Position numbers and translations under genes: made by a program. 64,000 nt of DNA from NCBI RefSeq assembly GCF_900114035.1, contig NZ_FORP01000009.1, positions 1 to 64,000 on the forward strand, read 5' to 3'. The stretch comes from Amycolatopsis sacchari. Its GTDB lineage: Bacteria; Actinomycetota; Actinomycetes; Mycobacteriales; Pseudonocardiaceae. Each line of letters opens with the position of its first letter. The first letter of the stretch is position 1. The notes beneath the pieces are model-generated. The model did no database searches, was not told the origin of the DNA, and saw only the letters and a list, made by a program, of their open reading frames with translations. This document shows, one piece after another, positions 6,760-38,561 of the stretch.

Positions 6760-8697
6760 GTGGATCAGGACCTCGTCTCCCTCGCCGACGCCTACGGGGT
6801 GGCTACCCGTTACGAGAACTCGGAACAACGCGAGGTCGTCGTCGACGCCGATGTCGTGATCGCCGTACTCGCCCAGTTCGGTGTCGACGCTTCGACGCCC
6901 GAGAGCATCGAGCGCGAACTGGCAGCCGTCCGCGAGGCACGAGAACGTACCGCGCTGCCGCCGACGCTCGTACTCCGGGCCGGTACCGAGCACGACGCGG
7001 GTGGCCCGGCGTTACTGCGTTTGGAGGACGGCACCCGCCGCGAAATCGACGGGACGATCCCGGGGGACCTGCCGCTGGGCTGGCACCGGGTGGTCACCGA
7101 GGACCAGGACGTCGTGCTCGCCGTGGTCCCGGACCGGCTGCCCGACGTGCCGCCCGCGTGGGGCTGGATGCTCCAGCTGTACGGGCTGCGCTCGGCCGGG
7201 TCGTGGGGCATGGGCGACTACGGGGACCTCGCCGTGGTGGCCCGTCGTTCGGCGGAGGAGCTGGGCGCCGGCGTGCTCCTGGTGAACCCGGTGCAGGCGA
7301 TCAGCCCGACGCACCCGGTCGAGCGTTCGCCGTACTCCCCGTCCAGCCGCCGCTTCGCGAACCCGCTGTACCTGCGGGTCACGGACACGAAAGCGTTTGC
7401 GGAAGCGGACGAGGCGACCAGGGAACGCGTGCTGGCGCTGAAACCGGACAACGACACCGAGTTGATCGACTACGACGCCGTGTGGGACGCGAAACTCGCC
7501 GCGCTCGAACTCCTGTGGCCACAGGAAACCGCCGAACCGGACCCGGCGCTGCGCGATTTCGCCACCTTCTGCGCGCTGGCCGAGCGGCACGGCCCGGACT
7601 GGCGCGACTGGCCCGCGCCGCTGCGGGACCGCGACAGCGCTGAAGTCGCGAAGGCGCGTGAGGAACTGGCCGAGCGCATCGCCTTCCACGCCTGGCTGCA
7701 GCACCTGTGCCGCGAGCAGCTCGACGCCGCACGGCAGGCGGCCCATGACGGCGGCATGCCGGTCGGCGTGGTGCACGACATGCCCGTCGGCGTGCACCCC
7801 GGTGGCGCCGACACCTGGGCGCTCGGGGACGCCTTCGCCGCGAAGGTCACGGTCGGCGCCCCGCCCGACGCCTTCAGCCAGCAGGGACAGGACTGGAACC
7901 TGCCGCCGTGGCGGCCGGACCGGCTCGCCGAACTCGGTTACGCGCCGTTCCGCGACGTGTTGCGGGGTGTGCTGCAGTATGCGGACGGCGTGCGCATCGA
8001 CCACGTCGCGGGGTTGTGGCGGCTGTGGTGGATCCCGCCGGGCGAGCCGCCGTCTCGCGGCACGTACGTGCATTACGACGCCGAAGCGATGATGGGCATC
8101 CTCGCGCTCGAAGCGCACCGGGCCGGTGCGGTCGTCGTCGGTGAGGACCTCGGCACGGTCGAGGACGAGGTGACCGAGACGATGCACGAACGCGGCATGC
8201 TCTCCTCCGCCGTGCTGTGGTTCCAACGCGACTACGACACGCCGGGACACCCGTTTGTCCCGCCGGGGAAGTGGGACCCTGAGTCCATGGCCAGCATCAC
8301 CACGCACGACCTGCCGACGGTGGCCGGGTGGCTCACGGCCGAGCACGTGCGGGTGCGGGCGGAGCTGGGCCTGCTCGACGGTCCGGCCGAGCGGGAGTAC
8401 TCGGCAGCTGAGGAGGAGCGCACGGATCTGACGAACTTCCTCGTCCAGCAAGGGATTCCGACCGAAGACAGGGTGGCGGCGCTGCACACCCTGCTCGCGT
8501 CGGCGTCCTCCCGCCTGCTGCTGACCGCACCCGCCGACGTCGTCGGCGAGCGCCGCCAGCCCAACCTGCCCGGCACGGTCGATGAATACCCGAACTGGCG
8601 GATACCCTTGCCCGTCACCGTCGACGAGTTCTTCGCCGACCCCGGCGTACGCCGTCTGGTCGCCACCCTGCGGGCCGCGCGCCCGCTGAACCGCTGA
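6760..8697 (+). CDS. malQ: 4-alpha-glucanotransferase (GH77, amylomaltase)
   Basis: Transfers alpha-1,4-glucan segments between maltodextrins, releasing glucose. GH77 features are visible: [18 protein letters not shown] near the start of the barrel, [38 protein letters not shown] (catalytic Asp), [12 protein letters not shown] (catalytic Glu) and [11 protein letters not shown]. The actinobacterial N-terminal extension ([12 protein letters not shown]) begins at GTG 6760, giving 645 residues; the frame remains open to GTG 6700, but the extra 20 residues are unlike family N-termini and lie in the divergent promoter. First gene of malQ-glgX-treY-treZ; glgX follows after 10 bp. It would rescue short oligosaccharides left by GlgX and TreZ. 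Confidence 0.93.
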
Positions 8698-30773: not shown

Positions 30774-31613
30774 TCAACTCCGCCGGGCTCCCACGTAAAC
30801 CTCTGGCTTGCGCTCATCCAGGTGCTTGAGAACGCGGCGGGCCGTGGCGATCTCGGCCTGGACGTCGAGTTCGGCCACCGCGATCCCCGCCTTCGCCCAG
30901 GTCCGCGCGAGGATGTCACCGCCGGGCCCGACCACCTTCGCCTGGCCGAGGAACCGCATCCCGCCCATGGCGCCGGTCTGGTTCGAAGAGGCCAGCACCA
31001 CCTGGTTCTCGGCAGCCCTCGCCTGGTCGTACAGGTCGAACAGCCGGGACTGCCGGTCCTGCGCCATGCGCGGCGCGCGGTTGGTGATGCTGGTCGGCCA
31101 GGCCGACAGGCAGGCGAGTACTTCGGCACCGTCGATGGCCAACGTGCGGGCCGACTCGGGGAACGTCTTGTCGTAGTCGATGAGCATCCCCAGACGGCCG
31201 ATCGGGGTGTCGAACGCGGCGAAGCGCTCGCCCGGCGCGTACGCGGCCGATTCGCCCGCCGGCTGGTGCACCTTCCGGTGCCGGCCCAGTACTCCGTCAC
31301 CGGTGACGCAGACCGCGGAGTTGTACCTCGACTCGCCCTCCGCCTCGCAGAACCCGAGACACACCACCATTTCAGCGGCCAGTGCGGCGACTTTCGCGAT
31401 CTCCGGTCCCTCGATTTCGAGCGCCGGCGGCAGAGCCTCCGGGTCGGGATGCCGCAGATCGGCGAGGTACCCACCCAGCGCCGCGTCCGGCAGGACCAGC
31501 AACGAGACGCCGGAACTGCGGGCGTGCTCGATCAGCGTCGCGATGCGCTGCAGGTCGAAGTCCAGGTCGCGGCCGAAATGCGCGGCCACCGCACCGATCC
31601 GGATGAGGCCCAT
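30774..31613 (-). CDS. Nitrilase-fold protein with degenerate catalytic triad (probable pseudoenzyme)
   Basis: 279-residue paralogue of the adjacent nitrilase, recognisable by RHRKVHQP, FAAFDTPIGRLGML and FPESARTLAIDGAEV. In the nitrilase superfamily catalysis needs Glu-Lys-Cys. Here the Glu position is D43 (LVLPDAALGGYL), Lys is kept (K114) and the nucleophilic Cys is D146 (MLIDYDKTFPE). Reading the codons directly gives GAC at both changed sites, with no frameshift and normal codon use, so this looks like a maintained protein, not a decayed gene. It starts five bases after the stop of the intact copy, evidently by tandem duplication. It may act as a structural or regulatory partner of the active nitrilase, whose family forms oligomers or spirals, or have an altered activity (inference). 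Confidence 0.85.
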   Translation of the reverse strand: MGLIRIGAVAAHFGRDLDFDLQRIATLIEHARSSGVSLLVLPDAALGGYLADLRHPDPEALPPALEIEGPEIAKVAALAAEMVVCLGFCEAEGESRYNSAVCVTGDGVLGRHRKVHQPAGESAAYAPGERFAAFDTPIGRLGMLIDYDKTFPESARTLAIDGAEVLACLSAWPTSITNRAPRMAQDRQSRLFDLYDQARAAENQVVLASSNQTGAMGGMRFLGQAKVVGPGGDILARTWAKAGIAVAELDVQAEIATARRVLKHLDERKPEVYVGARRS

Positions 31614-31618
31614 GAGCC

Positions 31619-32476
31619 CTAGTATCTCGTCCCGGCGAATTCTTCCTCGACGCCCAGCCCGGGATAGGCCTCTGGCCTGCGGTCCCGTAGGTGGCCCATC
31701 GAACGCCGGGCGGTCTCCAGTGCCTCCTTGACGTCCAGTTCGGTCACGGCCATGCCCTCGGCGACGCCCGTGTCGGACAGAATTTCGCCACCAGGGTCGA
31801 CCACCTTCGCACTGGCCACGAACCTGAGCGAGCCGAAGGTGCCGGACTGGTTCGCCGAAAGCCACACGATCTGGTTTTCGAGCGCCCTGGCCCGGTCGAA
31901 CAGGTCGAACCGGCGTTTCCACCGGTCCTGCGCGAGATCCGCGGCAGGATTCGTACGGCTGCCCGGCCAAGCCGAGATGCACACCCCGATCTCGGCGCCG
32001 TCGAGCGCGAGGGCACGCGCGGACTCGGGAAACGCCTTGTCGTAGCAGATCATGGTGCCGAGGCGGCCGACCGGTGTGTCGAAGGCGGCGAACGACTGGC
32101 CCGCACCATAGCTGGCGTCCTCCGACAGCGGCTGGTGCACCTTGCGGTGGTTGCCGAGCACTCCGTCTCCGTGCACGCACACGGCGCTGTTGTAGAGGCG
32201 GTCACCCGAGTCCTCGCAGTACCCGGCCACCACCACCATGTCACCGGCCAGCTTGCGGAGGCGTTCGATCTCGGGGCCGTCGAGACGCAGGGGTGGTGGT
32301 CCCTCGGCACCGCCGTCGAGGTTGGCGAGGTAGCCACCCAGGCAAGCCTCGGGCAGGGCAAGCAGGCCGACGCCCTCGGCGCGAGCCTTCTCGACGAGAT
32401 GGCGGATCCGCGCGAAGTCCTCGTCCAAGTCCCGATCGAAAGGAGCCGCCACAGCGGCCATGCGCAAGGTCGTCAT
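31619..32476 (-). CDS. nitC: Nitrilase of the Nit1C / Sll0784-MSMEG_0566 group
   Basis: 285-residue nitrilase-superfamily enzyme with all catalytic residues: E43 (LALPEACLGGYL), K112 (NHRKVHQP) and C144 (TMICYDKAFPE). Neighbourhood and sequence fit the group linked in other bacteria to the Nit1C cluster, required for assimilating cyanide nitrogen in Pseudomonas; the true nitrile substrate in actinomycetes is unresolved. ATG 32476 overlaps the stop of the GNAT-AIR gene (ATGA), so the two are coupled. Its immediate downstream neighbour is a near-copy lacking the catalytic Cys and Glu. The product should release ammonia and a carboxylate from a nitrile, or formamide/formate from a cyanide adduct. 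Confidence 0.88.
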   Translation of the reverse strand: MTTLRMAAVAAPFDRDLDEDFARIRHLVEKARAEGVGLLALPEACLGGYLANLDGGAEGPPPLRLDGPEIERLRKLAGDMVVVAGYCEDSGDRLYNSAVCVHGDGVLGNHRKVHQPLSEDASYGAGQSFAAFDTPVGRLGTMICYDKAFPESARALALDGAEIGVCISAWPGSRTNPAADLAQDRWKRRFDLFDRARALENQIVWLSANQSGTFGSLRFVASAKVVDPGGEILSDTGVAEGMAVTELDVKEALETARRSMGHLRDRRPEAYPGLGVEEEFAGTRY

Positions 32477-33858
32477 GCCCTTCCCAATCCAGTCACGCCC
32501 CCGGTGAGCACTTCCGTACGTTCCCCGTCCGGCCAGCACAGCGCCACGCCTCGGCCAGGGATCAACCGTCCACATGGGACGGACGCTGCGGGGCCGGCGT
32601 CGAGCGCGCCGGCGCCCGGTTCGTCCGTCGTCAGCATCGCGAACCCCGGAAAGCAGGTGAGCCAATCGCCCATACTCGTCCCGTTCGGCCTCGGTATCCG
32701 TGCCAGGTCGAGCTCGGCACCGCAGCCGCTGGCTTCGGCGAGCATGCCGAGCGTCCCGGCAACGCCCGCCATCGACACGTCCTTCGCCGCCGCTGGACGG
32801 GCTCGGCTAACGGCGCCGAGCATGGCGCGCAGCTCCGGCGTGCGGCGGAAGCTGCTCGAGTCCCACTGTCGTCCGGCGTATCCCGGGCGCCACCGGCCGT
32901 CCAGGTCGGCGGTGAGACGCACCTCGTGCCCGGGACGGCCGCCTCCCCCAGGCACCGGGTGAACCGTGCGGCCCAGGGCGGTGACGGACAGGGCCGCGGG
33001 GACCCCGAACTGGGTGTGGCCTCCGAGCACGGGAACTCCGTAGGCGTCGCTGGCCCGGCGCAGTCCGGTGAGTACCCGGCTTGCGAAGGACCTGTCACGG
33101 GCGCCTAGCGCGTCGAGCAGGCCGACGGGTTCCGCGCCCATGGCCGCGAGGTCGTTGACGTTGACCAGCACCGAGCACCATCCGGCCCACTCCGGATCGC
33201 GTTCGACCATCGACGGGACGATCGCATCGCACGCGGCGACGAGGTCGCTGCCAGGCACGGGGACCCCGTCATCACCGACGAAGCCGGGGACGCCGGTGAG
33301 TCCGGTGAGCAGCGGGCCGAGGTCACGCTTGGTGGCGTCGGCCAGGGCCTGGATGCGGCCGACGGGCCACCGCATGAGGACGTGCGGTGCGCCGGCGACC
33401 GTGACGCGTCGAACGGCACGCCAGCCGAGCCGGGTGAACAGCGGTTCGTTGCGAAGCTGCACGGTCGCTTCGAAGCGCAACACCCCGGCGTCCTCGGCAC
33501 GGGCACAGGCGGCACGGACGAGGGCAGGGCCGACGCTGCCGCGGCTGGCCGGTGCGACGACCAGGCGGCCGCCGTACCACCAGCCGAGATCCGGGCCGTC
33601 AAGCTGCGCGGGGCCGAGCCGGACGCCGCCGATGACGGCGCCCTCCCGGTCACGGGCGACGAGGACGACGGTGCGTGGGTCCTCGTCGTGCTCGTCGAGG
33701 TCGTGGTCCTCGAACAGGCCCTGTTCCTCGACGAACACCTGGCGGCGCAGGGCGTGGTACGCCGCAATGGTCACCGCGTCCGCCGCCTGCTCGATGTGGA
33801 AGGCGGGCTGGCGTTCGAGGCTGACGGGATCGCCGAGGATGGCCAGAACGTCGCGCAT
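32473..33858 (-). CDS. GNAT acetyltransferase fused to AIR-synthase-like domain (MSMEG_0567 type, NitE-NitF)
   Basis: 461-residue two-domain protein. Residues about 20-165 form a GNAT domain (FVEEQGLF, VVLVARDREGAVIGGVRLG, GGRLVVAPASRGSVGPALV for acetyl-CoA binding, RLGWRAV). Residues about 175-461 form a PurM/AIR-synthase-like ATP-binding domain (DAIVPSMV, VLVNVNDLAAMGAEPVGLLDALG, VLGGHTQFG). In Pseudomonas and Synechocystis these are separate nitE and nitF genes; the fusion, known in mycobacteria, implies they work on the same metabolite, perhaps acetyl and phosphate activation of an amine or amide (inference). It starts one base after the radical SAM gene stop and overlaps the nitrilase start by four bases. 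Confidence 0.87.
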   Translation of the reverse strand: MRDVLAILGDPVSLERQPAFHIEQAADAVTIAAYHALRRQVFVEEQGLFEDHDLDEHDEDPRTVVLVARDREGAVIGGVRLGPAQLDGPDLGWWYGGRLVVAPASRGSVGPALVRAACARAEDAGVLRFEATVQLRNEPLFTRLGWRAVRRVTVAGAPHVLMRWPVGRIQALADATKRDLGPLLTGLTGVPGFVGDDGVPVPGSDLVAACDAIVPSMVERDPEWAGWCSVLVNVNDLAAMGAEPVGLLDALGARDRSFASRVLTGLRRASDAYGVPVLGGHTQFGVPAALSVTALGRTVHPVPGGGGRPGHEVRLTADLDGRWRPGYAGRQWDSSSFRRTPELRAMLGAVSRARPAAAKDVSMAGVAGTLGMLAEASGCGAELDLARIPRPNGTSMGDWLTCFPGFAMLTTDEPGAGALDAGPAASVPCGRLIPGRGVALCWPDGERTEVLTGGVTGLGRA

Positions 33859-33859
33859 G

Positions 33860-34996
33860 TCAGCCTCCTGCCGTGCTCAAGGCACCGCACGCGCCGCAGG
33901 CGGCACAGCCGGCTTCCTGGTCCGAGCCCTTCATGCCGGCTGCCCGGAGCAGGGCCGCGACGCGCTCGGTGACGTCACGGACCAGGGCAGGTGACGGCGC
34001 CTTGGCACCGTCCCGGCGGGCGAGGGTGCCCGCCATCGGACGCATGGGCACGACGAACGGATAGACGCCACGCTCGATCAACCCTGCCGCCCCGGCGACG
34101 AGTTCGTCCGGGTTCTCACCCAAACCGACAAGGAGGTACGTCGACACTCGATTCCGACCGAACACGCGCACGGCCTCGTCCCAGGCCGCTTCGTACTCGC
34201 TCATCGGGACCGTGGACTTGCCCGGCATCCAGCGCCGGCGTACGTCGTCGTCCAAGGACTCCACGTGGATGCCGATAGAGGTCGCACCGGCTTCTCGCAG
34301 CTCGGTGAGTACTGCGAGGTCTCCCGGCGGTTCGATCTGCACCTGGATCGGCAGACCGGGCACCGCGGCGAGCACCGCCCGCACACAGCGAACGAGATGC
34401 CGGGCACCGCGGTCGGGTCCCGCGGTGGTGCCGGTGGTCATGACCATCTGCCGGACGCCGTCGAGCCGGACGGCCGCCTCCGCGACCTCGGCCAGCTGCG
34501 CGGGGGTTTTCGCGGCGATGGTCGAGCCCGCGTGCAGCGACTCCTCGATCGTGCAGAACCGGCAACGCTGGTCCTCGGCATAGCGGATGCAGGTCTGCAC
34601 GACCGTGGTCGCGAGGACGTCTCGTCCGTGCAGCAGCGCGATCTTGCGGTAGGGCACGCCGTCGGCCGTGGTCAGGTCGTAGAACTTCGGGCGGGCCACC
34701 GGTTCCACGGACAACCCGAGATCGATGCGGCCTTCATAGACCCGTCCGCCGCGGAGGGTGTACGGGCTCGCGGGGTTGAGGGGCAGCGCAGCGTTGGCAC
34801 CGTCGACGAGCAGGTGACCGTCGTCGCTCGGGCCCGCGCCCTTGCTGCGCTGCACGGGCGCGTCCCAGCGGACGCCCCGCACCGCGAGGTCCACCCTCAC
34901 CCGGACGGGGTCCAGGTCCGGGCCTGGGTGTCGAGCGTCTTCGCCGACGACAGGGGATGACGGCATGGCCGGTTCGCCTTCGGTGCCAACGCGCAC
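33860..34996 (-). CDS. Radical SAM protein, MSMEG_0568 family (NitD-like), with CX8CX2C cluster motif
   Basis: 378 residues. The cluster-binding cysteines appear as C136-x8-C145-x2-C148 (CIRYAEDQRCRFC), longer than the standard CX3CX2C, followed by a radical SAM barrel with MVMTTGTTAGPD, IQVQIEPPGDL and IGIHVESLDDDV. A second Cys set ends the protein (CAACGACG), possibly an auxiliary cluster or metal site. It should make a 5'-deoxyadenosyl radical and act on an unknown intermediate of the nitrilase pathway. GTG 34996 is fixed by AGGAGG five bases upstream. The upstream stop TAG overlaps that ribosome-binding site, and the downstream GNAT-AIR gene follows after one base. Confidence 0.86.
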   Translation of the reverse strand: MRVGTEGEPAMPSSPVVGEDARHPGPDLDPVRVRVDLAVRGVRWDAPVQRSKGAGPSDDGHLLVDGANAALPLNPASPYTLRGGRVYEGRIDLGLSVEPVARPKFYDLTTADGVPYRKIALLHGRDVLATTVVQTCIRYAEDQRCRFCTIEESLHAGSTIAAKTPAQLAEVAEAAVRLDGVRQMVMTTGTTAGPDRGARHLVRCVRAVLAAVPGLPIQVQIEPPGDLAVLTELREAGATSIGIHVESLDDDVRRRWMPGKSTVPMSEYEAAWDEAVRVFGRNRVSTYLLVGLGENPDELVAGAAGLIERGVYPFVVPMRPMAGTLARRDGAKAPSPALVRDVTERVAALLRAAGMKGSDQEAGCAACGACGALSTAGG

Positions 34997-35005
34997 TGCG
35001 GCCTC

Positions 35006-35518
35006 CTAGAACATGTAGGTCGAGTTGATGACGGCGCCCTTGCGGGCGTAATGGATCAAGGCGTCCTGCACGTCCAGCGGGTGCGTGGGGATGACGCCCT
35101 CGATCAGGTCCTCCTCCCGGGCGCCGTGCAGCGACAGCCCGAACCGGCAGCAGTACACCTTGCCGCCTTCGGCGATGAACGTCTTGAGCTGATCGTTGAT
35201 GTTCATCTCACCGGGGAAGGCCGCGTTTCCGGTCGTCGGGAAACCACGCGTTGCCAGGCAGTTCAGCGATCCCGGGCCGTAGAAGTAGATCGCGGTCTCG
35301 AATCCCTTGCGCAGCGCTCGGGTCGCCTGCAGGATCGCCACGAAACTCACCGACGACTCGTGGGCGATACCGTGCACGAGGGTGAAGTAGCTCTCGCCGT
35401 TTTCCGCCTTGTAGTCGGGAAAAACCTTCGTCCCGCCGTACAGGCTAGATCCTTCGGGGAGGGAGGGGTGCGGAACCTCTTCGAGGCTCTTCTGCTCCAG
35501 GTCGGTCAGCTCGGGCAT
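35006..35518 (-). CDS. MSMEG_0572/Sll0783 family protein (NitB-like)
   Basis: 170-residue soluble protein of the family named for nitrogen-starvation response in Synechocystis (Sll0783). Visible features: EEVPHPSLPEGSSLYGGTKVFPDYK, FYGPGSLNCLATRGFP, KVYCCRFGLSLHG and a closing GAVINSTYMF. The DsrE/TusD-like alternation of hydrophobic strands and two conserved Cys in YCCRFG suggest a DsrE-like fold, but biochemical function is unknown. ATG 35518 is chosen because AAGGAG lies five bases ahead. It is the second gene of the operon and its stop abuts the ribosome-binding site of the radical SAM gene, so it is almost certainly cotranscribed. Confidence 0.83.
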   Translation of the reverse strand: MPELTDLEQKSLEEVPHPSLPEGSSLYGGTKVFPDYKAENGESYFTLVHGIAHESSVSFVAILQATRALRKGFETAIYFYGPGSLNCLATRGFPTTGNAAFPGEMNINDQLKTFIAEGGKVYCCRFGLSLHGAREEDLIEGVIPTHPLDVQDALIHYARKGAVINSTYMF

Positions 35519-35552
35519 ACCAGCTCCTTTTGTTCCTTCGATTTCTTCGTGA

Positions 35553-36368
35553 TCAGCCGTAGAGTTTTTCGAAGTTCTCCCGGAACACCAGTCCGGAGAG
35601 CTCACCGTCACCGGTGGCCGCCCGCATGCGGGCGTACTCCCCTTCCCGGTCGCCCCAGGGCTCGTCGCTCGCGAAGAGGATCCGGTCGTGACCGATGCCG
35701 CGCCGGGAAACCTCTTCCGCCAGCCATCGGGGCGCGAACCCGATGGCCCACGACAAGTCCGTGTAGACCCGCTTTCCCGCTTCGATCCAGTCGAAGAACC
35801 GGGAACCGGCGAGCTTGATGTGACCGCTCATACCGCCGCCGAAGTGCACCAGGTGAACGGCGACGTGATCCCCGTACCACTCGACGAGGTTGCCGACCTC
35901 GTCGATGTCGGACGCAGCACCCGGCGACGTGTGCACGTGCACCACCAGATCACGCTCGCGGGCGACGGCAAAGATCCGGTCGAGCATCGGTCGGCAGCTC
36001 GGGTCGCTCGCGCGGCCACCGAGCAGGAAGCTGAGTTTGAGCGCCTTAACCCCCTGCTCCGCCGCCAGTGCGAGCGCGGCCTCCGTGCGTTCCAAGTCGC
36101 TCGGCAGCGGTGAAACCCACAGCGCGGCACGGATCCGGTCGTCGGTCTGGGCCGCTTCGACGCACAACTCGTTGAAGGCGAACGAAACTCCGGGGCTCGG
36201 CACGCCGTAGTTGGGGATGACGAGCGCGCGTTCGGTGCCTTCGGCGTCGAGGTCGGCGATCAGTTCGGCGATCGTCGCCCGGGCTTTCGTGTCGGGGTTG
36301 ACGGCGGGGCCGCCGTAGAACGGGTACGCCGGCAGCACGCCGAGGTGGCGATGCGCGTCGAATACCAT
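35553..36368 (-). CDS. Amidohydrolase-2 family protein of the Nit1C cluster
   Basis: 271-residue TIM-barrel hydrolase: an N-terminal metal motif variant (DAHRHLG), a central VVHVHTSPG strand and the C-terminal FASDEPWGD with the catalytic Asp. It is short for the family but complete. It is the first gene of the run 36368 to 29661, separated by 34 bp from the Sll0783-family gene, and its start has TAGGA about nine bases upstream. In mycobacteria an amidohydrolase occupies the same place, as far as I recall. It may cleave an amide, imine or carbamoyl adduct feeding or leaving the nitrilase step (inference). Confidence 0.83.
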   Translation of the reverse strand: MVFDAHRHLGVLPAYPFYGGPAVNPDTKARATIAELIADLDAEGTERALVIPNYGVPSPGVSFAFNELCVEAAQTDDRIRAALWVSPLPSDLERTEAALALAAEQGVKALKLSFLLGGRASDPSCRPMLDRIFAVARERDLVVHVHTSPGAASDIDEVGNLVEWYGDHVAVHLVHFGGGMSGHIKLAGSRFFDWIEAGKRVYTDLSWAIGFAPRWLAEEVSRRGIGHDRILFASDEPWGDREGEYARMRAATGDGELSGLVFRENFEKLYG

Positions 36369-36570
36369 GATCGATTTCCTAGGGTCGGGAGCCGGGATGT
36401 GAAGTTCGGTCGGGGTGTGGCGTATTTCGGTTGGTGGGTGGCGGGGCGCGGCGGGGACGGCCCGGATTCACGTGGCGGTGGGTCGGCGACGTGACACGGT
36501 CGAGGTAGCGCTGCCGGAGGAGTCAGGACGAGACGGCGGTCCGGCGGAGACCGCGGAATCCGCCGAGGAT

Positions 36571-36616
36571 GGGGATGGGGCTGGGGCCGGGGCTGGGGCC
36601 GGAGCCGGGGCTGGGG
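36571..36616 (+). repeat. G-quadruplex-like run (seven G4 tracts)
   Basis: GGGG tracts at 36571, 36577, 36583, 36589, 36595, 36607 and 36613, separated by 2-3 bases, or by CCGGAGCC once. Single-strand G-quadruplex formation on the plus strand is chemically expected. It lies about 200 bp upstream of the nitrilase operon start and could affect transcription or replication there. Confidence 0.65.
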
Positions 36617-36739
36617 CGAGTAGGGATTGGGCGAGGGTGTCGGTGCCTGTCAGGTTGGGGGCGGCGTGCGTGCCTTCCCTGCAGGGCGTTCACCTGCGGA
36701 GCCAGGCGGGTAGCCGTGCAAGAGGATGCGCCGGGACAG

Positions 36740-37115
36740 CCGGGCAGCCCACGTGACCCGGCCGGGCCGAGCGGCACCCAACCGAACCGAGCCGCGCCGA
36801 CCTCGCCGAGCGCCTGGGTGCGCCGTGCGGCCCACCGCGGCACCCAGCCAAACCGAGCGGCGCCAGCCTCGCCGAGCGTCGGGGCGTGCTGCGGCCCATC
36901 GCTGCGCCGACCTCGCCGAGCACCGGGGCATGCCGCGCGGCCCACCCGAACCGACCAACCGAGCCGCGCCAACCCAGCCGAACGCCGGGGCGTGCCGAGC
37001 GGCACCGGCCCAGCCAAGCCCGGGGGGCGGCCCACCGCAGCCGACCAACCGAGCGGCACCGGCCCAGCCAAGCCCCGGGGGGCGTCCCGCGCAGCCCGAA
37101 CCGACCCAACCGGGC
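36740..37115. repeat. Degenerate tandem repeat array
   Basis: Units of about 30-60 bp share the words GCGGCCCACC, CAACCGAGC(C/G)GC, ACCTCGCCGAGC and CCGGGGCGTGC; the best-preserved pair is GAGCGGCACCGGCCCAGCCA, seen near 36992 and again near 37051 followed by AGCCC(C)GGGGGGCG. No conserved reading frame runs through it. It starts 12 bp beyond the flavoprotein stop. Unit borders are by eye. Confidence 0.6.
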
Positions 37116-37127
37116 CACAGCAGCCGC

Positions 37128-38453
37128 TCATGCGACTGTCCGTGGGGCGACCCAGTCGTCGCTTTCGTAGGTTCCGGGTGGCGATCCCGCTAGCCAGCGG
37201 ACTTCTGAGCTTCGGCCGCCTCGGTGGAGCAGTTCGATCCGGCCTGCCAAGAACTCCGCGTCGGCGGCGACGCCGCAGAAGCGGCCCGAGCCCCACGTGT
37301 ACTGCCACGGGAGACCCAGGAAATACAAGCCCTCACAACTCGTCACGCCTCTGTCGTGCGTGGGGTAGCCTCTGCCGTCGAAGATGGGGACGTCTATCCA
37401 GCGGTGGTCCCGGCCGAAACCTGTGCACCAGACCACCGACGTGATCCCCGACAGGGCCAGCTCCGTGGGCTCGACAGACGGCTGCCACACCGGGACGTAG
37501 CGGGCCTCCGACGGGGCATCTATGCCGTGCGACGAGATGTACGCGTCGATCGAGTCCTTGATTCCCTCGGACACCGCGTCCGCGGCGTCCAGGTTCTTGC
37601 GCAGGTCCTGGTCGAAAGTGAACGCGCCCGACGAGAAACCACGAAGCCTGCCGTACAAGCGCATTCCCTCGCGGGCGAAGGCGCGCAAATCGATGTCATG
37701 ACCACCGTCGCGGCCTGTGACGTAGTGGTTGGCCCGGAAACGCACCGCATCCGCGTCGGCGAATTCGTCTATTCCCCTTCGGTAATAGCCCATCTCGTCC
37801 AGCCACGCCACCACGTCCCGGCCGCGGTACCGGCGCGCCACCCGCGGCGCGCTGCCCACCGCCAGGTGCACGCGACGCCCCGCCAGGTGCAGATCCTCCG
37901 CGATCTGGCAGCCCGACTGGCCCGTGCCGACCACCAGAACCTCGCCCGGCGGCAACCCGTCCGGATTCCGGTACTGCGAGGAATGCAGCTGCACCAACGA
38001 CTCCGGCAGCCGCTCGGCCATCCTCGGGATCAGCGGCACCTGGTACGGCCCCGTCGCGAGCACGACCTGCTCCGCTGTCACGTCCCCCTGCGACGTGCGG
38101 ACCAGGAAACCGTGTGGCGTCAACCGCAGGCGCGTCGCCTCCACACCCTCGATCACCGGCAGCTCGAACGTCTTCGCGTACTCCCGCACATACGAGACGA
38201 TCTCGGCGCGCCCCATGAAACCGTCGGGATCCGGTCCGCGGTAAGGAAAACCCGGCAACTGACACTGCCAGTTCGGCGTCACGAGACAAAACGTGTCCCA
38301 GCGCCGGTCCCGCCACTCGTGGCCGATCTCGTCCCGCTCGAGGACCACGTGATCGATCCCGCGGCCCCGCAGGCAGTGGCTCATCGACAGCCCCGCCTGC
38401 CCACCGCCGATCACGACCACGGAGTGATGACGGCCATGTAGTGGATGAGACAC
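37128..38453 (-). CDS. FAD-dependent oxidoreductase, MSMEG_0569 family (NitH-like)
   Basis: 441 residues with two dinucleotide-binding motifs: [18 protein letters not shown] at the N-terminus for FAD and [17 protein letters not shown] centrally for NADPH, plus the FMO-like [11 protein letters not shown] and a closing [18 protein letters not shown]. It resembles flavin-containing monooxygenases and is one of the core Nit1C proteins, possibly N-oxygenating an amine or oxime intermediate (inference). GTG 38453 follows GGAGG by seven bases. It is on the same strand as, and upstream of, the rest of the cluster but is separated from it by 760 bp of repeats, so it may have its own transcript. Confidence 0.87.
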
Positions 38454-38561
38454 CGAACGTCCTCCTCGCGAGTACCGTCGCTGATGACGACCAGTACAGC
38501 CAGGAGCCATTGCCGAACGGTTTCATCCGGAACAACTGCGTGTTACGCGCGGCCCGCTTTG

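Follow-up and report, generated by a model that had tools for sequence, protein, structure and literature searches.

Two described systems come closest to the gene cluster analyzed here. One is Nit1C, whose nitrilase belongs to subfamily 1; the clusters of Burkholderia and Rubrivivax also have a glycosyltransferase gene inserted (PMC1199592). The second is the MSMEG_0565-0572 (gpr) operon of M. smegmatis, which is activated by GlnR; mutants without it become sensitive to peroxide when starved of nitrogen, an effect not assigned to single genes (PMC6039565). Within this operon, MSMEG_0566 appears in publications under the aliphatic amidases (PMC4222082, PMC4617892), and a contribution to nitrogen assimilation has been suggested for it (PMC6039565). 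The portions of the cited papers on which these accounts are based name no product for the cluster.

Homologues of enzymes that have lost their catalytic residues are known from other settings. BCG_2279c is an Lnt paralogue in which Cys387 is changed to Ser, and no Lnt function was detected for it (PMC3850990); loss of the nucleophile therefore has a precedent in the superfamily. EryCII, a disabled P450 homologue, is linked to the glycosyltransferase EryCIII, which it activates (PMC3391682).

A gpr-type cluster with two nitrilase-superfamily paralogues

The window, a stretch of 64,000 nucleotides of an Amycolatopsis sacchari contig (NZ_FORP01000009.1), contains an operon-like run of genes on the minus strand, extending from a flavoprotein gene through a glycosyltransferase gene:

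37128..38510, minus strand: flavin-dependent oxidoreductase, MSMEG_0569-family (TIGR04046 over cut-off)
35553..36368, minus strand: Amidohydro_2 protein of the same operon (PF04909 over cut-off)
35006..35611, minus strand: MSMEG_0572/Sll0783-family protein (TIGR04044 over cut-off)
33860..34996, minus strand: radical SAM protein, MSMEG_0568-family (TIGR04043 over cut-off)
32473..33858, minus strand: fusion of GNAT and AIR-synthase-like parts, MSMEG_0567 type (TIGR04045 and TIGR04050 over cut-off)
31619..32476, minus strand: N1, carbon-nitrogen hydrolase with intact Glu43/Lys112/Cys144, 285 aa
30774..31613, minus strand: N2, nitrilase-superfamily paralogue with Asp43/Lys114/Asp146, 279 aa
29661..30743, minus strand: glycosyltransferase, MSMEG_0565-family (TIGR04047, 465.6 bits against a cut-off of 259.85)

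N2 follows N1 after a spacer of 5 nt, and the glycosyltransferase gene begins 30 nt past N2. As the TIGR04044 match begins at residue 45, the true start of the 35006..35611 protein is probably further in. TIGR04049 (the sll0787 form) scored below its cut-off for this cluster.

The cluster shares the radical SAM, GNAT, AIR-synthase-like, MSMEG_0572/Sll0783 and flavoprotein families with Nit1C, but contains two paralogues where Nit1C has one nitrilase. The initial annotation had placed the pair in a Nit1C cluster; this is right for the shared families, but not for the Nit6803-type (subfamily 1) nitrilase, which is absent as judged by TIGR04048, the Nit6803 model (N1 39.3 and N2 27.8 bits against a cut-off of 502.6). 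None of the 396 genomes in a sample of the phylum had a TIGR04048 match over cut-off (best 484.3 bits). The cluster in the window represents the form found in actinobacteria, MSMEG_0565-0572 (gpr). Its families, including the MSMEG_0565 glycosyltransferase (TIGR04047), are like those of the M. smegmatis operon, while the gene order differs, an Amidohydro_2 gene is present, and an MSMEG_0570-like gene is missing (with the Rhodococcus MSMEG_0570 protein as query, nothing in the window fell below E 0.5). Judged by gene order only, MSMEG_0571 would be N1 and MSMEG_0566 would be N2 (PMC6039565).

In M. smegmatis, a selenoprotein uniting N1 and the flavoprotein through read-through has been proposed (PMC6039565). 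As a general feature, such a protein is contradicted by gene order: the flavoprotein gene is the first of the searched genes and N1 is near the end in 69 of 80 loci (the best 80 of 166 GTDB relatives), and on a Rhodococcus plasmid the MSMEG_0570 gene lies between the two.

The accessory genes seem to alternate, with Amidohydro_2 in window-type loci (74 of the 80 scanned, again the best 80 of 166 GTDB relatives) and MSMEG_0570 on the Rhodococcus plasmid, where the latter gene lies at 7435-7740 of the locus (L285) and no Amidohydro_2 gene is annotated. This 502-kb linear mobilizable plasmid of Rhodococcus qingshengii carries the entire cluster, N1 and N2 included (L285, 3456-10930), flanked by IS3 transposase genes; N2 was found in 4 plasmid records. 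In the window itself, the gap between the flavoprotein and Amidohydro_2 genes (36562-37111) is filled with GC-rich imperfect repeats having periods of 6, 18, 90 and 110.

N1 and N2 are 59% identical, and both score well above the PF00795 (CN_hydrolase) cut-off of 23.2 bits (133.7 and 121.1, respectively), while neither reaches the family equivalog cut-offs. The Glu-Lys-Cys (E/K/C) triad is found in N1, encoded by GAG (E43), AAG (K112) and TGC (C144), and is lacking in N2, which has Asp, Lys and Asp (D/K/D):

31485..31487, minus strand: N2 codon 43, GAC, Asp replacing the general-base Glu
31272..31274, minus strand: N2 codon 114, AAG, Lys retained
31176..31178, minus strand: N2 codon 146, GAC, Asp replacing the nucleophile Cys

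Re-reading of the DNA confirmed the coordinates, residues, GAC codons, intact frames and five-base spacing reported in the initial annotation. Its claim that both Glu and Cys are lost from N2 also agrees with the alignment to characterized structures. In a phmmer search of the PDB, D43, K114 and D146 of N2 aligned to the Glu, Lys and Cys of PH0642 (1j31), and since the two sets are in register, the residues have been replaced rather than displaced. Of the cysteines considered as a displaced nucleophile, C89, C102 and C168 are not fixed in N2. The predicted models have a pLDDT of 91.5 (N2) and 87.4 (N1), and the N2 model matches the nitrilase-superfamily amidases 6ypa and 1j31 with a TM of 0.82-0.84 (Foldseek). 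N2 shares its fold, Pfam family and triad Lys with amidases such as PH0642 and N-carbamoylputrescine amidase, but has Asp or His and Asp where the amidases of the superfamily have Glu and Cys. Its current public annotation is carbon-nitrogen hydrolase. BCG_2279c has likewise lost the nucleophile, but carries Ser rather than Asp, belongs to the membrane Lnt branch and lies outside this cluster (PMC3850990). The initial annotation knew of no description of a D/K/D nitrilase pair in Nit1C clusters, and our literature search, in which subscription journals were mostly out of reach, turned up none.

Distribution, conservation and selection

In the family to which the window genome belongs, 31 of 150 genomes matched at E 1e-40, each with two matches. 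Loci were available from 30 of these 31 genomes, the window's included, and had D/K/D in all 30 N2 and E/K/C in all 29 N1; in one genome (G004), the N1-type partner, also E/K/C, is on another contig. Among the best 80 of 166 GTDB relatives, which include Amycolatopsis, Saccharothrix, Streptomyces, Herbidospora and Rhodococcus, N2 was D/K/D in every case, and an intact E/K/C gene lay no more than 150 nt upstream of it in 78; in the other two, N1 was 1380 nt upstream (L134) or broken into three pieces (L110). In the phylum sample, 9 of 396 genomes matched: the window's own, four more with D/K/D, each of which also carries an E/K/C relative, and four with E/K/C only. Finally, in the Mycobacteriaceae-type family to which G223 belongs, 63 of 251 genomes matched at E 1e-60, 61 of them with two or more matches, and N2 was D/K/D in all 30 with a locus. 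The two single-match genomes are G725, with a decayed remnant of N2 and its neighbours, and G749, which is 85% complete and has only N1, on a 3.2-kb contig. The initial annotation had called for a search for the D/K/D paralogue, and the copy proved to be present in many relatives. With D/K/D in 30 of 30, 80 of 80 and 31 of 31 intact N2 from three locus sets, we rejected a pseudogene or sequencing artefact as an explanation of N2.

In G725, the degraded pieces of N2, GNAT/AIR and glycosyltransferase lie together (L241, 8551-10092), as though the whole cluster were decaying together. Three other genomes (G596, G663, G627; L234-L240) have two N1-type genes, one beside N2 and the other beside the flavoprotein gene elsewhere; in G627, the frame of the copy beside N2 is shortened at its N-terminus.

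Once repeated core sequences had been removed, the pooled data comprised 141 distinct N2 and 132 distinct N1 (146 and 134 before removal); the N2 fragment of G725 and rows of fewer than 250 residues were left out, as were 23 deeper E/K/C relatives from the N1 count. Asp146 and Lys114 are present in all 141 N2, while position 43 is Asp in 137 and His in 4, and position 121 is Glu in 134, Val in 6 and Asp in 1. All 132 N1 have Glu43, Lys114, Glu121 and Cys146 (N2 numbering). An alignment of 155 distinct Glu/Lys/Cys relatives has 58 columns with an invariance of 98% or higher, and the majority residue of N2 differs in four of them (43, 69, 146 and 267), two of which are catalytic. This exceeds chance expectation, as the hypergeometric estimate for at least two of the three triad columns being among these four is 0.011, a value that ignores relatedness. 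Residue 85 (31359-31361 in the window) is Cys in 140 of the 141 distinct N2 but varies among N1; it stands early in strand 83-92 of the predicted N2 model and is taken to lie away from the pocket.

The initial annotation held that N2 is maintained by selection and is not decaying. This is borne out by a codon-model omega far below 1 in 15 species of the window's family (0.051 for N2, 0.055 for N1). Nei-Gojobori medians over 105 pairs were 0.20 and 0.23, respectively, and the nonsynonymous difference was lower in N2 than in N1 in 89 of the 105. N2 is under strong purifying selection, and neither of the outcomes that the initial annotation had named as refuting its view (displaced residues, or relaxed selection and absence from relatives) was observed.

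In a tree of 100 rows computed without the triad columns, all 38 N2 rows fell on one side of a branch (SH-aLRT 96); when three distant outgroup rows were added, two N2 rows stood at an unresolved fork. Neither tree, both being quick trees without bootstrap, gave any support to a recent local duplication as the origin of N2. As N2 occupies one side of a branch and the changed invariant columns include the catalytic ones, this looks like one early loss targeted at catalytic residues, and N2 is probably an ancient pseudo-hydrolase of the nitrilase superfamily with a single origin.

Mean pairwise identity over the 66 loci with both genes was computed for sequence-defined segments around the triad:

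Segment 38-53: N2 0.975, N1 0.904
Segment 108-127: N2 0.822, N1 0.838
Segment 138-158: N2 0.936, N1 0.924
Segment 166-203: N2 0.931, N1 0.825
Columns outside these four segments and 206-230: N2 0.787, N1 0.746

Three of the four active-site segments are thus at least as conserved in N2 as in N1. Since a plain scaffold needs no invariant Lys and Asp, we infer ligand binding or chemistry for N2; its pocket, with Lys114 and Asp146, is probably still under selection and binds a small ligand. The same invariant residues, together with Glu121 in 134 of 141 N2 and the high conservation of the active-site segments, could mark an enzyme with new chemistry, whose acid-base or covalent centre would be built from Lys114, Asp146 and the Asp or His of position 43 and would catalyze a reaction other than Cys-dependent hydrolysis. 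We regard this as unlikely: position 43 tolerates Asp or His, Val is possible at position 121, the conservation fits binding equally, and we know of no member of the nitrilase superfamily with an Asp nucleophile.

Candidate partners of N2

The 146 N2 loci comprise 30 from the window's family, the best 80 of 166 GTDB relatives, 4 from the phylum sample and a last set of 32 (31 Mycobacteriaceae-type genomes and G805). All but two of the 146 (29 of 30, 80 of 80, 4 of 4 and 31 of 32, respectively), in every layout seen, have an MSMEG_0565-family glycosyltransferase gene that begins no more than 300 nt downstream of N2, most commonly with an estimated overlap of 4 nt. Linkage of a dead homologue to a glycosyltransferase gene, as in EryCII/EryCIII, is therefore the arrangement at these 144 loci. 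Like N2, EryCII is a disabled enzyme homologue linked to a glycosyltransferase that it could activate, but as a P450 homologue it has a different fold (PMC3391682). The two exceptions are the remnant in G725 and G004, which has an intact N2 and no such glycosyltransferase in the 13 kb downstream.

Upstream of N2, an N1 gene no more than 150 nt away is present in 108 of the 146 loci, the broken L110 copy counted (29 of 30, 79 of 80, 0 of 4 and 0 of 32). Four loci of the last set have N1 as the preceding recognized gene, 342-347 nt from N2; in the remaining loci of the phylum and last sets, it belongs to another locus or is separated from N2 by more than 1.2 kb (up to more than 6 kb). It adjoins the flavoprotein gene in most Mycobacteriaceae-type loci, and in three genomes with a split cluster (G674, G552, G579) it is found in a second locus with the 0572 and flavoprotein genes, N2 staying between GNAT/AIR and the glycosyltransferase.

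These arrangements bear on the proposal in the initial annotation that N2 is a subunit of its live twin, that is, a non-catalytic member of a hetero-oligomer that stabilizes or regulates N1. Nitrilase-superfamily proteins oligomerize, and paralogues sharing an oligomeric fold often mix. Co-occurrence in genomes is near complete, with two matches in all 31 matching genomes of the window's family, two or more in 61 of the 63 Mycobacteriaceae-type genomes, and an N1 gene (one broken) in all 80 loci from the best 80 of 166 GTDB relatives, 38 of which have a 4-nt overlap of the N1 stop and N2 start; a hetero-oligomer is therefore conceivable. Adjacency, however, is not general, as none of the 36 wider-set loci has N1 within 150 nt and three genomes have it in a separate locus, and nine cluster-bearing genomes have N1 without N2. 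The partial correlation between N2 and N1 is, moreover, negative within both subsets of loci. We consider N2 as a subunit of N1 possible but do not favour it, and regard it as doubtful.

The partial distance correlations of N2 with N1, the glycosyltransferase and 0572 were 0.29, 0.10 and 0.30 over 96 loci, -0.15, 0.23 and 0.40 in the GTDB set, and -0.19, 0.33 and 0.39 in the Mycobacteriaceae-type set. These mirror-tree results are mixed and weak, and we give them little weight.

N2 and the glycosyltransferase are also missing together. Eight genomes of family f43 (G249, G270, G972, G990, G952, G931, G904, G898) combine an E/K/C gene with genes for GNAT/AIR and the flavoprotein, and have neither a D/K/D match nor a TIGR04047 match over cut-off. 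A ninth, G867 (family f125), has 0572, radical SAM, GNAT/AIR and N1, with a single match at E 1e-60, of the E/K/C kind, and no TIGR04047 match over cut-off; its assembly is fragmented, and the contig breaks off next to N1. The nine joint absences suggest that N2 and the glycosyltransferase act as a module gained by, or lost from, an N1-bearing core, although the eight in f43 may be one event. Conversely, in 4 of 4 clusters scanned, TIGR04047 glycosyltransferases over cut-off occur without N1 or N2, so this family does not always need N2, which may be required only in clusters that combine the glycosyltransferase with N1.

A bridge binding both N1 and the glycosyltransferase, needed only where one pathway has both, would account for all five clusters of the phylum sample (396) that combine the two and also have N2, as well as for the clusters with N1 alone (G249, G270) or the glycosyltransferase alone that lack it. 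(A radical SAM match over cut-off was found in 22 genomes; the neighbourhoods cover 21, without G400.) The independent events are few, however, and shared ancestry yields the same pattern; such a bridge seems improbable to us.

A third cluster type, seen in other actinobacteria (L174-L184), has radical SAM and separate GNAT and AIR genes, several of these clusters carrying TIGR04047 glycosyltransferases. No CN hydrolase was found in 1350 frames from 15 cluster regions with a home-made HMM, which a very divergent one could escape.

A putative role for N2 and its significance

As the best explanation of these data, we tentatively propose that N2 may be a pseudo-hydrolase that binds a ligand and serves the MSMEG_0565-family glycosyltransferase. 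From the known mechanism, N2, with neither the nucleophile Cys nor the general-base Glu, would be unable to carry out the classical hydrolase reaction. The N2 pocket could then bind an amide- or nitrile-type intermediate of the cluster without hydrolyzing it, and N2 might, through direct contact, present this intermediate to the downstream glycosyltransferase or activate that enzyme, much as EryCII activates EryCIII. The data establish that the residues are replaced and the replacements conserved, where N2 stands in the tree, that it is under purifying selection, and that its gene is linked to that of the glycosyltransferase and missing together with it. Several observations speak against this model: G004, the TIGR04047 clusters without N2, the correlation over 96 loci favouring N1, the concentration of eight of the nine joint absences in one family, the fragmented assembly of G867, and the co-occurrence of N2, in almost all cases, with E/K/C genes. 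As all of the evidence is genomic, our confidence in the mechanism is modest.

Somewhat more likely than not is a broader view, in which N2 is the first of a class of proteins that have the nitrilase fold and a conserved Asp/Lys centre but have lost C-N hydrolysis, acting either as the substrate-presenting partner of the glycosyltransferase or as an enzyme with a new reaction. If this is true, a widespread actinobacterial nitrogen-starvation pathway relies on a hydrolase turned to a new use. Should N2 have no hydrolase activity, the amidase and nitrogen-assimilation reading of MSMEG_0566, which is N2 by gene order, would fail. An N2 that retains its pocket and is unable to turn its ligand over would offer a handle for capturing the pathway intermediate, and the widely retained D/K/D class would provide a clean test case of how and why a pseudoenzyme persists.
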